A stretch of DNA of 64,000 bases from an uncultured Alphaproteobacteria bacterium (GCA_902524655.1 CABZEG010000003.1:1-64000), one strand, 5' to 3'; positions 5,694 through 11,473 are shown, counted from the first letter of the stretch. The notes: generated from the sequence alone by a model not told the origin. Made by a program: numbers and translations.

Positions 5694-6485
5694 CTAACTA
5701 CCTGTAAACCTGGGCCTTTCCTTATTAAGAAACGAATTCAGTCCATGGGGACCGTCATGAGTGTCCATTGTGCCAACGATATGTCGAGTCTCGTTGTCAA
5801 GTTGCGACTCTATCGGAGATGAGAACGATGATAAAAGCATTTTCTTCACTCCTCCGTAGGCCTTGGTCGGTCCGGATGCAAGTTGAATTGCTAACTCGTT
5901 CGCCTTTTTGGCTAAGTTATCGTGAGCCACTACATTTGTTACAAAGCCCCATTGCTTGGCTTCGTCTGCAGACAACATTCTATTAGTTAGAAAAAGCTCT
6001 TTGGCTCTTAGTAATCCAATATGTTTAGCCAAAAAATACGTTGATGATCCATCAGGAGTTAACCCTGAAGCGGTATACGCTGAGACGAATTTTGCTTTAT
6101 CCGATGCCAAGATGTAGTCTCCTGAGAGAGCGAGAGAAAAGCCCCCGCCTGCAGCAGTTCCATTAATAGCCATAATAACCGGTGCATCCATATATTGAAA
6201 ACGTATAATTGCATTATGAAGATCGGAAGCCACTCGACTAAGATGTTCGTCCTGTCTTCCTCCTGGAGGATTATCAAATTCCTTTAGGTCGCCCCCAGCG
6301 TTGAACATTTTACCATTTGCTGTAATAATCAGAGCACCCAAGTTTTTGTCTCTCGAGCACAAAACTGATATCTCAAATAATTCCTTAGCCATTTGCGCGT
6401 TCAATGCGTTCGCTTCATCAGGCCTATTCATCGTAAGTATTCCGACTCTATCTTTAATCTCAAAAGTAATTGTCTCAAATTGCAT
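5694..6485 (-). CDS. Enoyl-CoA hydratase/isomerase family protein, PaaG-like
   Basis: A 263-residue crotonase-superfamily protein from the ATG at 6485. That start is chosen over 6530 because TTAGAGGGGGCAATA precedes it. The oxyanion-hole segments are MFNAGGDLKEF (residues 60-70) and NGTAAGGGFSLALSGD. The two glutamates of classical enoyl-CoA hydratase are absent. Instead Asp145 lies in GLTPDGSSTYFL, the position used by PaaG-type ring-opening and double-bond isomerases. I therefore expect isomerase-like rather than hydratase activity on an acyl-CoA. It is divergent from the SnoaL/CitE-like operon. Confidence 0.87.
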   Translation of the reverse strand: MQFETITFEIKDRVGILTMNRPDEANALNAQMAKELFEISVLCSRDKNLGALIITANGKMFNAGGDLKEFDNPPGGRQDEHLSRVASDLHNAIIRFQYMDAPVIMAINGTAAGGGFSLALSGDYILASDKAKFVSAYTASGLTPDGSSTYFLAKHIGLLRAKELFLTNRMLSADEAKQWGFVTNVVAHDNLAKKANELAIQLASGPTKAYGGVKKMLLSSFSSPIESQLDNETRHIVGTMDTHDGPHGLNSFLNKERPRFTGS

Positions 6486-6602
6486 TATTGCCCCCTCTAA
6501 ATAATTCAAAATTAGAACTTTAGTAATCATACAACATAAATATAATTTTTCCCTATAAGTATTTGACTTCCCTTGTTAAGATTTGTTGTGGAGGACTAAA
6601 CT

Positions 6603-7082
6603 TTGGAATTTAGTGAAATTGTAAAAACTTTTACAACTGCGGTTGAAAATAACGATGGAGAAAAACTAGCCTCTTTGTTTACCGTTGATGGAATCTATGA
6701 CGATTATATTTATGGTGAATTTAAGGGAAGAAGAAATATTGCAACGATGCTTCCAACCCATTTTCACAGAGATGCTAAAAATTTTTCCTGGGAAATGTAC
6801 GACCTTATTAACAATGATAGAAAAGGGTACGCTAGATATCGTTTCTCTTTTACCTCGACACTGACCGGTTCTGAAAATCTAAAAGTAGCTGTACCCGGCA
6901 TGGCTTATTTCCAATTTGATGGTAATCTAATTGAATATTATGGGGAGGTAGTAAATGGTGGAATACCCATGGCTCAATTAAATCTCCCAGCAGGAAAGAT
7001 CAAACGCGTCTTCGAAAAATGGTCTGATAGAGCCCTAGTCTCAGATTCAGAACTAAAGAAGCTATATACCAAAGGAGAATAA
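6603..7082 (+). CDS. SnoaL/NTF2-like protein
   Basis: A 159-residue protein with the cone-shaped alpha+beta barrel pattern of SnoaL/NTF2-like enzymes: an N-terminal helix (FTTAVENNDGEKLASLF), VDGIYDDYIYGEFKGR, and later strands ending AYFQFDGNLIEYYGEVVNGG. Members include isomerases, dehydratases and small-molecule binders; no specific reaction can be named. The start is TTG at 6603, supported by GGAGGAC a few bases upstream. It is the first gene of a seven-gene unit, with only 2 bp before the next gene, and lies opposite the crotonase gene. Confidence 0.7.
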   Translation: MEFSEIVKTFTTAVENNDGEKLASLFTVDGIYDDYIYGEFKGRRNIATMLPTHFHRDAKNFSWEMYDLINNDRKGYARYRFSFTSTLTGSENLKVAVPGMAYFQFDGNLIEYYGEVVNGGIPMAQLNLPAGKIKRVFEKWSDRALVSDSELKKLYTKGE

Positions 7083-7084
7083 TT

Positions 7085-7948
7085 TTGACTATTAGAGCGA
7101 GACGAAGTTTTATTTTTACGCCTGGATTAAAACCTGAAATGTTTCCAAAAGCTCTGAAATGCGGTGTTGATATGGTTTGTGTAGAATTAGAGGATGGTAT
7201 CGCACCTCATGACAAATCCGAGGCTAGGACGCGTGCCTTAAATATTTTTAAGGATGATAAGGGATTTAAAAACGTTGAGCGTATTCTTAGAATTAATAGT
7301 ATTCGCACACAATTTGGTTTGAAGGACTTACAGGCTGTTTTGAAAAGCGAAAGCCCGCCTCCAGCTTTAATGCTCCCCAAAGTGATGGATGCTGAAGAAA
7401 TTATCATAGTGGACGATCTATTATCAGAAGCAAATAAAGACTGTGACCTTCATCCTATTATAGAGACAAATAAAGGTTTAGAAAATGTCTTCAAAATTGC
7501 AGCCGCAAGTAAAAGAATAAAAACTTTATTTTTTGGACTTATTGATATGGCAGCAGAGCTTCGATGCAAATTAACGTGGGAAGATTTATTGTATGCACGT
7601 TCAAGAGTAGTACATGCTGCCGCAAAAGAAGGTCTTGACGCGATAGACGGACCTTATCTAGATCTCAGCGATAATGAGGGCCTTAAACGCTACTGTGAAC
7701 AGGCACGCAACCTGGGCTTCACAGGGAAAGGCTCAATTAACCCAAAACAGGTTCCAATAATAAATAAAATATTTTCTCCTAATGATCAAGAAGTAAAAAA
7801 AGCAGAGCGTATACTAAGTATTTTTGAAGAAGCAAATACAGGTCTTGTAATGGTCGATGGAAAGTTAATCGAAAAACCTGTACTGAGACAAATGCAAAGA
7901 ACAGTTGAGATTTCAAATAAATTAAAATCCCCCCAATCTAATGGATAG
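7085..7948 (+). CDS. HpcH/HpaI aldolase, CitE-like CoA-ester lyase
   Basis: A 287-residue TIM-barrel lyase of the CitE/malyl-CoA lyase type. Diagnostic segments are RSFIFTPGLKPEMFPKAL (CoA-binding N-terminus), VCVELEDGIAPHDKSEAR (metal and base region), MLPKVMDAEEI, PIIETNKGLENV and the C-terminal GSINPKQVPIIN. Such enzymes cleave or condense malyl-, citramalyl- or related acyl-CoA thioesters using Mg2+. No citrate lyase alpha or gamma subunits are nearby, so it is a stand-alone CoA-ester lyase rather than part of citrate lyase. The start is TTG with AAAGGAG upstream. Its end overlaps the next gene by 8 bp. Confidence 0.88.
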   Translation: MTIRARRSFIFTPGLKPEMFPKALKCGVDMVCVELEDGIAPHDKSEARTRALNIFKDDKGFKNVERILRINSIRTQFGLKDLQAVLKSESPPPALMLPKVMDAEEIIIVDDLLSEANKDCDLHPIIETNKGLENVFKIAAASKRIKTLFFGLIDMAAELRCKLTWEDLLYARSRVVHAAAKEGLDAIDGPYLDLSDNEGLKRYCEQARNLGFTGKGSINPKQVPIINKIFSPNDQEVKKAERILSIFEEANTGLVMVDGKLIEKPVLRQMQRTVEISNKLKSPQSNG

Positions 7949-9089
7949 CTTTGAGAAAGAGATCAACTCAACGTTTCGGAAGTTGAATATACCTTTTGTT
8001 GACTATGGCATAACAAGTAGTGATTCTATTTCTCTTGAACGTATTTTCAGGAATCCCGAGTTTCCAAATTTATCTCAAAATAGAAACTCAATATTTCGCA
8101 TGGCATCAATGACTAAGCCTCTAACTGCCTATATTACATTGGCTCTACTTGATGATTATAGAATTGACCTTCACGAAAGCGTTGGCACTTATCTTCCTGA
8201 AATCAATAATTTAAGAATTGCCTATAAAGGGGGAGATACAATTAAGTATAAAAAAAATAATGTGCCTATTTCTTTCCATCACCTATTAAGCTGTACCTCG
8301 GGAAATGCATATGAACATCACGATCCAATCATTTCAGAGTTATTGTTGAAAAAGGAAATTGCTCCCATGAAAATAGGTGACGATGCTTTTCTAAAAGCAC
8401 CGTTAGTATTTACACCTGGTAGCCGATGGAGTTATGGCATCTCCTATGGCTGGCTTGGTAAAGCGATAGAAGCCATAAGTGGACTTAGCTTGGATGAAAA
8501 TCTCAAAAAGTATCTATGTAATCCTCTTGGCTTAAATCAGACTTCTTTTGATCCAGAGCAGTCCAATGAAGAAATCCTGGCTCCAGTATATTTTAGGGAG
8601 TCGAAGGGTTCTTATTTAGACATTACACCAAAGATCACTTTGGGCTTTAACCCATTTCACTATGGTGGTGGTGGAATTACATCTACCTTAAGTGACTATT
8701 TAAAGATCCTTCAGTTTTTTTTGAAAGATATGAAGTCTAATGGAAAAGATTCCGTTGTTTCATCTATGTTAAGCAATCAAATAGGCAGTTTAACGATTTT
8801 ACCTCTAAAAAGTTTCAATAAAAGCTTAGCGCTAGATTATGAAATTTATCCAAATATCGAAAAGTGCTGGGGCTATGGTCTTATTATAAACAAGGAACCA
8901 ATACCGAAAAAACGCAAAGCGGGAAGTGGAAGCTGGGCCGGTGTGTTGAATACATATTTTTGGTTGGATCCTACAAACGATTTGGCCGGTGTCTTTTTGG
9001 CACAGATCTTACCCTGCTACTGTCCCAATCTTCTTAACGCGTTCGAGACGTTCGAAGAACTTGCTTATGAGCGTTTAATAAGGAACTAG
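7941..9089 (+). CDS. Beta-lactamase-fold serine hydrolase (class C-like)
   Basis: A 382-residue serine hydrolase of the beta-lactamase/transpeptidase-like superfamily. The nucleophile motif S-x-x-K is read as Ser56-Met-Thr-Lys59 (RMASMTKPL). A Tyr-containing second motif follows in WSYGISYGWLG, and a Gly-rich KAGSGSWAG near the C-terminus sits where the third motif is expected. There is no clear signal peptide, so a cytoplasmic esterase-like role is more likely than antibiotic resistance. It overlaps the CitE-like gene and is followed after 4 bp by the YdcF gene. Confidence 0.85.
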   Translation: MDSFEKEINSTFRKLNIPFVDYGITSSDSISLERIFRNPEFPNLSQNRNSIFRMASMTKPLTAYITLALLDDYRIDLHESVGTYLPEINNLRIAYKGGDTIKYKKNNVPISFHHLLSCTSGNAYEHHDPIISELLLKKEIAPMKIGDDAFLKAPLVFTPGSRWSYGISYGWLGKAIEAISGLSLDENLKKYLCNPLGLNQTSFDPEQSNEEILAPVYFRESKGSYLDITPKITLGFNPFHYGGGGITSTLSDYLKILQFFLKDMKSNGKDSVVSSMLSNQIGSLTILPLKSFNKSLALDYEIYPNIEKCWGYGLIINKEPIPKKRKAGSGSWAGVLNTYFWLDPTNDLAGVFLAQILPCYCPNLLNAFETFEELAYERLIRN

Positions 9090-9093
9090 TTGC

Positions 9094-9867
9094 TTGTTTT
9101 TTATTCTCTCGAAAATATTCAATTTTTTTTTAGACCCTTTCAATCTTTTAATAATTTCCTTTTTTCTTTTTTTACTTATCATCGCTAGAGCAAAAAAAAA
9201 TAAGCTTAGAGGCACCTATTGGTTTGTGCTTTTTTGGAGCCTTCTTCTATATAAACCGATACCAGAATTTCTTGTGAAAAATCTTGAAGATAAATTTTCG
9301 TATAGAGAAGAAACCTTTCTTGAGTTAGAAGGCATAATTGTACTCGGAGGTAGCACGGGCTCCGGAAAAATCGCTAAAGAACGGAACGACATTTCTCTAG
9401 GGCCAGGCGCGGAAAGAGTTTTTAAGGGTTTACAATTTCTACAGCAGCAACCTCAAGGTACTGTTATTTTTACTGGCTTTTCCGGAAATCTTTTCCATGA
9501 AGTGCTATCAGAGGCAGAGATAATAGAAAAGCTAATCAAGGCGCTAAAAGTAGATTCCAAAAAAATACTCTTTGAGAGACGCTCTCGAAATACGTTCGAA
9601 AATGCCTTTTACACAGGAGAGATTATTGATAACCTCAAAATAAAAAAGTGGGGGATTGTGACCTCAGCCAACCATATGAAGAGGGCTATCGCCTCTTTTG
9701 AAAAACAGCACCCCGAAACAGTCTTCGAAGCGATACCAGTTGATTTTCAAACGGCAAACTCGATATACTGGAGTCCAAGAAATATGCAAGGTAGTATTAA
9801 TCTTTGGCGTATCTATATACATGAAAGTGTAGGATACTGGATGTATAAGTTGACAAGGAAACTTTAA
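9094..9867 (+). CDS. YdcF/ElyC/SanA family membrane protein (DUF218)
   Basis: A 257-residue protein with one or two N-terminal membrane helices, then a soluble DUF218 domain. The motifs GIIVLGG, VIFTGFSGN, FERRSRNTFENAFYTGEI and WGIVTSANHMKRA follow the usual order of the YdcF-like family, some members of which affect envelope or peptidoglycan precursor metabolism. The start is TTG. The stop codon shares one base with the start of the BLUF gene (TAATG), indicating translational coupling. Confidence 0.85.
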   Translation: MFFILSKIFNFFLDPFNLLIISFFLFLLIIARAKKNKLRGTYWFVLFWSLLLYKPIPEFLVKNLEDKFSYREETFLELEGIIVLGGSTGSGKIAKERNDISLGPGAERVFKGLQFLQQQPQGTVIFTGFSGNLFHEVLSEAEIIEKLIKALKVDSKKILFERRSRNTFENAFYTGEIIDNLKIKKWGIVTSANHMKRAIASFEKQHPETVFEAIPVDFQTANSIYWSPRNMQGSINLWRIYIHESVGYWMYKLTRKL

Positions 9868-10277
9868 TGAAATTGATGCAACTGGTTTATTGTTCCCAAC
9901 CGTTTGGATATAGCTTGGAAATTCTGTCAGCAATATTAATTGCTTCTAGAGCAAACAACAGGAAACACGACATCACTGGCGCTTTAATCTGTCGTTCGGA
10001 TATTTTTCTGCAGCTTCTTGAAGGACCTGAACAACAGGTAAAAAATACCTATGAGGCGATACAGAAGGATGACCGCCACATAAATGTCTATCACCTCTTC
10101 GATCAGTTTTGTGAAAAGCGTTTATTTCCTGCATGGGCTATGAAAGACGACCCGGTTAAAACGTGGATGTGGAGCCGGGAGGAGGTTTCAAGCGGAATTG
10201 TTAAAAGCTTGTCTAAAGCTGAGGTAGAAGAAGTTTTCGTTAAACTTTCCAGAGAAGCGAAAATTTTTAACTTTTAG
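9867..10277 (+). CDS. BLUF-domain blue-light photoreceptor
   Basis: A 136-residue protein that is essentially one BLUF domain with a short C-terminal helical cap. The flavin hydrogen-bonding residues are at canonical positions: Tyr8 (QLVYCS), Asn31 (SRANNRKHDITG) and Gln49 (FLQLLEG). DDRHINVYHLF and RLFPAWAM are further family signatures. BLUF domains bind FAD and signal blue light by a hydrogen-bond rearrangement. With no fused EAL or cyclase domain, output must go through a partner protein. It is embedded in a tight operon, coupled to YdcF upstream and 3 bp from a small membrane protein downstream. Confidence 0.95.
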   Translation: MKLMQLVYCSQPFGYSLEILSAILIASRANNRKHDITGALICRSDIFLQLLEGPEQQVKNTYEAIQKDDRHINVYHLFDQFCEKRLFPAWAMKDDPVKTWMWSREEVSSGIVKSLSKAEVEEVFVKLSREAKIFNF

Positions 10278-10280
10278 ACA

Positions 10281-10547
10281 ATGTCTAAGTATATGAGTTA
10301 CTTAAAGTATTTTATTACTTCTACCTGTTTTGTTCTGAGTTGTATTTTTTTGTTAATATTTTTACTTGAATTCTATGACCTAATAAATAGATGCTATAGT
10401 ATCAATCGCTTTTCGGTTTCTGTTTTAAACTGTATACAAGTGTTTTATTATGAAATACTTAAAACTAGCTTTTTCGTAGTGGTATTGTTACTTCTGGCTA
10501 TTTTGACAATGCAAAAACTTACAGTTCCTTTCAAATCGGGTGATTGA
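10281..10547 (+). CDS. Small hypothetical membrane protein
   Basis: An 88-residue protein of unrecognised family. Two hydrophobic segments are visible, FITSTCFVLSCIFLLIFLLEF and TSFFVVVLLLLAILTM, suggesting a two-helix inner-membrane protein with a short Cys-containing connecting loop. It lies 3 bp after the BLUF gene, and its TGA overlaps the ATG of the AEC transporter gene by one base. That context suggests it is translated as part of the operon and might link BLUF to the membrane or to the transporter. This last point is inference only. Confidence 0.6.
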   Translation: MSKYMSYLKYFITSTCFVLSCIFLLIFLLEFYDLINRCYSINRFSVSVLNCIQVFYYEILKTSFFVVVLLLLAILTMQKLTVPFKSGD

Positions 10548-11473
10548 TGACTGATGTCTTAAATTTAACTATTCCAATGTTTTCTTTAATTGGTATCGGC
10601 TACCTATTGAAAAAAATTCAGTTTATGTCGGAACTGGATGGTACTGTTTTATCAAAGTTTGCTTTTTATATTTTGCTACCCCCACTTATGTTCACAAGTA
10701 TCCTTTCGGGCGATGCCAGTAAAAGCTTAAACTTAAATTTCATTCTTAGTTACGAGATTATAACAATATCGATCTTTGGTCTCACCTATCTTATTGGACT
10801 TTTTATAAAACTCAAGACCATGGAGAAAGCGATCTTCGGCTTAAATGCCGCCTACCCAAATTATGGTTATATAGGTGTCCCCTTATGCATTTTAGCGTTC
10901 GGCACAGAGGCTGCTATACCTTTAGCGTTGATCCTACTAGCTGATACTTTTATTTTGTTGAGCACTCTTATATTTTATAAATTAACAGAGAATAGAAAAA
11001 CCAGCCTGAAAGAGTTGGGAAAAGAAGTAATTGAGCGCTTCGTTTACAACCCACTTATGATGTCTGTTATTGCAGCCTTTATATTTTCAACTGCAGACAT
11101 AAAAATAATAACAGCTATTGACAGAACACTTTCGATTGTCGCCGCATCGGCCACTGCCGTCGCTTTAATTGCGCTTGGCGTCTCACTAAATGTAGGGTCA
11201 GTTAAAAATCAAAAGAGTGTTTTGTTCATTATAACATTAATAAAACTCGTAGTACATCCGATATTAATATTTACCATTTTCCAATTTCAAAGTGGTATTG
11301 ATCCTATGTGGGTTAAAACAGCAATTGTTTGTGCCAGCTTACCGGTTGCCGCTAATGTTTTCGTTTTAGCAAATTATTACAAAACATTTTCTAATGAAAG
11401 TGCTGCTGCTATAACTATAACAACAATAGTTTCAAGCATAACAGTCACAGTTACGTTATTGTTGACCTTGTAA
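10547..11473 (+). CDS. AEC family transporter (auxin efflux carrier-like)
   Basis: A 308-residue membrane protein with about ten helices. The N-terminus DVLNLTIPMFSLIGIGYLLKK, the NYGYIGVPL half-helix region and a C-terminal repeat ending LPVAANVFVLANYY are typical of the AEC family, which exports or imports dicarboxylates, malonate or related anions in bacteria. I chose ATG at 10547 over the TTG at 10544. It is the last gene of the operon that begins with the SnoaL-like gene. A dicarboxylate-type substrate would suit the CitE-like lyase, but this is not shown. Confidence 0.88.
   Translation: MTDVLNLTIPMFSLIGIGYLLKKIQFMSELDGTVLSKFAFYILLPPLMFTSILSGDASKSLNLNFILSYEIITISIFGLTYLIGLFIKLKTMEKAIFGLNAAYPNYGYIGVPLCILAFGTEAAIPLALILLADTFILLSTLIFYKLTENRKTSLKELGKEVIERFVYNPLMMSVIAAFIFSTADIKIITAIDRTLSIVAASATAVALIALGVSLNVGSVKNQKSVLFIITLIKLVVHPILIFTIFQFQSGIDPMWVKTAIVCASLPVAANVFVLANYYKTFSNESAAAITITTIVSSITVTVTLLLTL

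Follow-up and report, generated by a model that had tools for sequence, protein, structure and literature searches.

A putative blue-light receptor of the BLUF family encoded in a genus-specific operon with a CoA-ester lyase and an AEC-family carrier in marine Rhodobacteraceae

In an uncultivated marine lineage of Rhodobacteraceae known from single-cell genomes, the gene for a short BLUF protein lies within a run of seven co-directional open reading frames, and its linkage to genes of carbon metabolism and transport is real and selected within the genus. The run occupies positions 6603-11473 of the window, as we call the whole stretch of 64,000 nt that was analysed, which belongs to a genome of 1.77 Mb in 72 contigs that is 71% complete (G000); the genus was sampled by 22 genomes. 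We assign a probability of roughly 0.45 to the reading that the seven genes constitute one co-transcribed, translationally coupled operon in which the BLUF protein is a working receptor that acts on the products or the expression of its own operon. A short BLUF gene within an operon is of a kind already known, and the case described here is a genus-specific example.

As listed in Table 1, the seven genes belong to different families. Their junctions, when recomputed, were 2, -8, 4, -1, 3 and -1 bp, and the gene set, the families and the six gaps given in the first-pass annotation were all correct on re-examination. The last of these junctions follows from placing the start of the carrier gene at the ATG at 10547, in a TGATG overlap, which is better than the TTG at 10544. 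Within the window, 21 of the 56 codirectional neighbour pairs (38%) lie within 10 bp of each other. However, the seven genes are the sole tight run (<=10 bp) of more than three genes, all others stopping at three, and for this reason the packing goes beyond what would be expected by chance. Since the tight co-directional spacing is also conserved in relatives, co-transcription as a single operon is well supported at the sequence level, and the original proposal of one operon stands. The divergently oriented enoyl-CoA hydratase/isomerase (ECH) gene, whose true start is likely near 6497, adjoins the operon throughout the genus; the two are separated by 105-110 bp in 12 genomes, the window included, with a divergent region of about 105 bp common to both. 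The seven genes of the operon encode neither a transcription factor nor any other protein known to partner with BLUF.

Table 1. Features of the BLUF operon and its upstream flank in the window.
Feature	Position	Strand	Support
Enoyl-CoA hydratase/isomerase, divergent	5694..6530	-	Pfam ECH_1 3.7e-50
Divergent intergenic region, presumed operon promoter	6498..6602		aligned across 12 genomes, well conserved
SnoaL-like protein, 159 aa, TTG start	6603..7082	+	Pfam SnoaL_2 3.1e-9
CitE/RipC-like HpcH/HpaI CoA-ester lyase, 287 aa	7085..7948	+	Pfam HpcH_HpaI 9e-35
Serine hydrolase, beta-lactamase/esterase fold, 382 aa, SMTK motif	7941..9089	+	Pfam Beta-lactamase 6.7e-34
YdcF/ElyC-like DUF218 protein, 257 aa	9094..9867	+	Pfam DUF218 1e-24
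Short BLUF blue-light receptor (predicted), PixD-like, 136 aa	9867..10277	+	Pfam BLUF 4.6e-27
88-aa membrane protein	10281..10547	+	no Pfam match
AEC-family carrier, 308 aa	10547..11473	+	Pfam Mem_trans 5.8e-26

The operon BLUF gene was found in 13 other genomes of the genus, and in all of them the genes that the contig covers follow the same order. All seven genes are intact in nine of them, three are cut by contig ends, and in one (G014) all that is left of YdcF is a remnant, consisting of short fragments between an intact serine hydrolase gene and the BLUF gene (L044, 9112-9457). The BLUF, membrane protein and AEC genes of that genome are intact although YdcF has decayed; the remnant could also be explained as an artefact of single-cell assembly. 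The YdcF-BLUF junction is -1 bp in every genome of the genus with an intact YdcF, that between BLUF and the 88-aa protein is 3 bp across the genus and 9 bp in G021, and that between the 88-aa protein and AEC is -1 bp except in G014 (8 bp) and G021 (17 bp). G021 is the most divergent member, its operon BLUF being 65% and its 88-aa protein about 29-38% identical, and still the order is kept. Purifying selection acts on each of the seven, with median pairwise dN/dS values (G021 left out) from 0.05 to 0.22: 0.08 for SnoaL, 0.05 for CitE, 0.16 for the serine hydrolase, 0.18 for YdcF, 0.06 for BLUF, 0.22 for the 88-aa protein and 0.08 for AEC. BLUF is thus among the most constrained genes of the operon, and the tight spacing persists despite the different rates at which the genes diverge. 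Decoupling of BLUF from the cluster inside the genus was considered and rejected: when the genomes without a BLUF hit were checked via AEC, CitE and ABCF, none was found to contain the cluster minus BLUF, the apparent absences being unassembled or at contig ends, as in G001 and G005, where the contig breaks off inside the locus or next to it and which therefore count as missing data rather than as counterexamples. Synteny within the genus is not specific evidence of function, because gene order is preserved equally well in the flanks (MFS, EamA, ECH, ABCF and rnpA). In G015, the ABCF gene beside the operon (L039, 8887-10715) is split into two matches that overlap and contain stop codons, which probably reflects a frameshift or an assembly error.

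The BLUF protein matches the Pfam family with 94 bits and has a complete domain with the flavin-site residues that short receptors of the PixD/BlsA type need. Residues Y8, N31, Q49, W90 and M92 are invariant across 44 relatives (alignment A2). There is no fused effector domain, and the core is followed by helices at 104-108, 111-114 and 117-130. The best Foldseek matches to its AlphaFold model (pLDDT 84.5) were PixD, light-regulated cyclases, AppA and BlsA, with a TM-score of up to 0.80 (TePixD). The intact photochemical residues suggest a response to light, and the protein is most likely a working receptor of the PixD/BlsA type, in line with the initial reading of a BLUF light sensor. It resembles PixD (Slr1694 / Tll0078) in being a lone BLUF domain with short C-terminal helices and the same photochemical residues, but it is only about 27% identical, and its DPxxxWxW tail is typical of the alphaproteobacterial subfamily to which it belongs. 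Just past the core, this tail, in the form DP(V/A)xxWxW, is conserved in 44 BLUF proteins (D95, P96, W100 and W102 in window numbering).

The 88-aa ORF has no match in Pfam or NCBIfam. It is present in all operons of the genus whose contig covers the position, including that of the divergent G021 (82 aa), and this conservation, together with its dN/dS, marks it as a real gene, in agreement with the membrane protein of 88 residues claimed earlier. Its model is a hairpin of two long helices (2-42 and 48-81), which at a pLDDT of 74 and a pTM of 0.46 is informative for topology only. The lyase, described at first sight as CitE-like, was confirmed as a RipC/CitE-family CoA-ester lyase by Pfam (PF03328, the HpcH/HpaI family) and by its best solved relative, 3qll (3.9e-51). 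RipC/Ccl is the citramalyl-CoA lyase of itaconate degradation, in which RipA is the CoA-transferase and RipB the MaoC-type hydratase. The window lyase is likewise an HpcH/HpaI lyase and has RipC_Ccl (NF038242) as its best NCBIfam equivalog; however, its 260 bits are under the cut-off of 375 for that equivalog, and the operon encodes neither the RipA CoA-transferase nor the RipB hydratase. The serine hydrolase is nearest to the methyl acetate hydrolase AcmB (NF052559), with 208 bits under a cut-off of 550. In the carrier, Mem_trans (PF03547) extends over residues 8-303 with 91 bits and so covers the full length, and the nearest AECs outside the genus are 42-44% identical.

According to the reading that we favour, blue light would rearrange the flavin-Tyr-Gln network and change the binding of BLUF to its partner. 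The receptor would be synthesised in constant proportion to the membrane protein and the carrier encoded directly downstream, and would most likely act on the products or the expression of its own operon, with the result that the transport of a small organic acid into or out of the cell would be tuned together with its processing by the CoA-ester lyase and the serine hydrolase. The BlsA system described below is a precedent for this reading too. Action on the own operon is favoured because of this fixed-ratio synthesis with the neighbours, at junctions of -1, 3 and -1 bp. The target of BLUF and the substrate are conjecture, and the link between light and metabolism is no more than a fair hypothesis, to which the loci outside the genus add nothing.

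A quite plausible alternative is that BLUF is a passenger of the operon, co-transcribed with it but having its partner in trans, for example a transcription regulator whose gene lies outside the operon. There is precedent for this in Acinetobacter, where BlsA regulates in response to light through Fur as well as through AcoN. Under blue light, the short BLUF protein BlsA binds the repressor AcoN and thereby switches acetoin catabolism (PMC6595428). The window BLUF is also short and could gate carbon catabolism in a similar way via a protein partner, but in contrast to the BlsA systems it is embedded in a metabolic and transport operon that contains no AcoN- or Fur-like regulator. The DPxxxWxW tail is shared by BLUFs of about 50% identity in unrelated neighbourhoods, as expected for a common partner that is not encoded nearby; that it is kept while the neighbours change suggests a shared partner or a dimer interface, and it counts toward a target in trans. 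Moreover, the genus has further BLUF genes in other contexts, one of which, 49% identical (G009, G021), adjoins an aldolase gene outside the operon. On the other side, the spacing from BLUF through the membrane protein gene to AEC is near-constant over the whole genus, and because it is fixed in this way we place action on the own operon slightly ahead of a trans-acting target.

Gene-order conservation, which the first-pass annotation had proposed as a check, was found across the genomes of the genus, but the set breaks up outside it. When 84,980 species genomes were scanned with a BLUF alignment, 80 loci were retained, and a quick tree places these BLUFs in one well-supported short-BLUF subfamily (SH-aLRT 98). 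The CitE, serine hydrolase, YdcF and 88-aa genes were absent by tblastn from all 67 BLUF loci that are not part of the operon (L096-L162). The BLUFs of about 50% identity occur in Rhodobacteraceae, Hyphomicrobium, Methylobacterium, Caulobacteraceae and Roseomonas, in neighbourhoods that vary by lineage: L161 and others have a 2OG-oxygenase set, L131 and L139 have an aldolase set, and there are further types. That annotation had also named BLUF genes in unrelated contexts of close relatives as evidence against its reading; this is what the 67 loci outside the operon present, and so does the 49% identical BLUF of G009 and G021, whereas the orthologues inside the genus do not. Relatives of the lyase (57-67% identity; 16 loci from 348 genomes of the family) had no BLUF, AEC or SnoaL neighbour by tblastn, and the three nearest AECs are either on their own or next to an SDR-like gene. 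Given the unrelated neighbourhoods in which the outside relatives of BLUF, CitE and AEC lie, the operon was most likely assembled from parts in the ancestor of the genus. That the packing merely reflects a compact genome, with nothing but a promoter in common, would agree with the many close codirectional pairs in the window, with the equally conserved flanks and with a set nowhere found together outside the genus, but is unlikely in view of a tight run without equal in the window and a spacing kept despite unequal gene divergence.

Two side observations concern these outside loci. In one group, a BLUF gene of the same subfamily is flanked by a RACo-type corrinoid activator gene on one side and by a TRAP transporter set on the other (L096-L099, near 8001; L319, 7926-8327), which is a second case of BLUF in a metabolic operon. 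Close CitE-like relatives in other Rhodobacteraceae (L213-L228) adjoin genes for a GcvT-like aminomethyltransferase or a methanethiol-oxidase-like protein. The context of the lyase relatives, which by sequence reading includes GcvT-like, molybdopterin-oxidoreductase-like or methanethiol-oxidase-like genes, was tried as a clue to the substrate and set aside; it is a hint that the subfamily may function in C1 or methylated-sulfur metabolism.

About 150 further BLUF loci were examined for a nearby AEC gene, and five had one within 4.5 kb (L106, L110, L112, L118 and L267). The first four represent one lineage (MED-G08), and in L267 the AEC gene is on the opposite strand, which leaves in effect two independent cases. 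With a few AEC genes per genome, the rough expectation is about 1% per locus, or once or twice in about 150; a general association of BLUF with AEC in the family was therefore rejected as near chance. In L106 and L118, the genes for BLUF, a SnoaL-like protein, a 124-aa membrane protein and AEC follow each other in this order on one strand, while the membrane protein is missing from L110 and L112, two of the four members. As MED-G08 is the only other lineage found with BLUF and AEC on the same strand, this loss bears on the suggestion in the first-pass annotation that the 88-aa protein may be a go-between for BLUF and the carrier. By the same rough estimate, a same-strand, near-adjacent arrangement of this kind is expected roughly 0.1 times, which is suggestive only, and post hoc. 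The MED-G08 cluster is like the window operon in BLUF subfamily, strand and kinds of neighbour, but its spacing is looser. Common ancestry of both clusters was rejected because their AECs belong to separate clades and no homology was detectable between their SnoaL or between their membrane proteins, which indicates that the pairing is convergent or due to chance. A literature search for BLUF with auxin efflux carriers returned nothing relevant, only an unrelated plant review.

It is unlikely that at least two lineages of marine Rhodobacteraceae have independently put an AEC carrier under a short BLUF via a small membrane protein, as a recurrent transport module in which blue light, with no transcription factor involved, would directly open, close or assemble a carrier of organic acids. 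Bacteria of the sunlit ocean commonly have short BLUF receptors and, to our knowledge, the downstream partner is known for few of these receptors; here, the predicted translational coupling of BLUF to no more than two membrane proteins as candidate partners makes the search narrower. If light does directly set the activity of the carrier, this would add a new output to those of BLUF proteins, and if it does not, the seven genes would be an ordinary lineage-specific operon.

A search for rhodopsins gave no match in the genus, but none in any control genome either. The window genome encodes a second, distant BLUF protein of 144 aa (C9:50721; L052, 8713-9147), whose gene is preceded, 208 bp upstream, by one for a class III cyclase-TPR protein. 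The idea that this locus encodes a split BLUF-cyclase pair was rejected, as thiolase-like and dehydratase-like genes on the opposite strand intervene in L053 and the spacing is similar in most others, the gap between the second BLUF gene and the cyclase-TPR gene being about 1.8 kb in most members of the genus.
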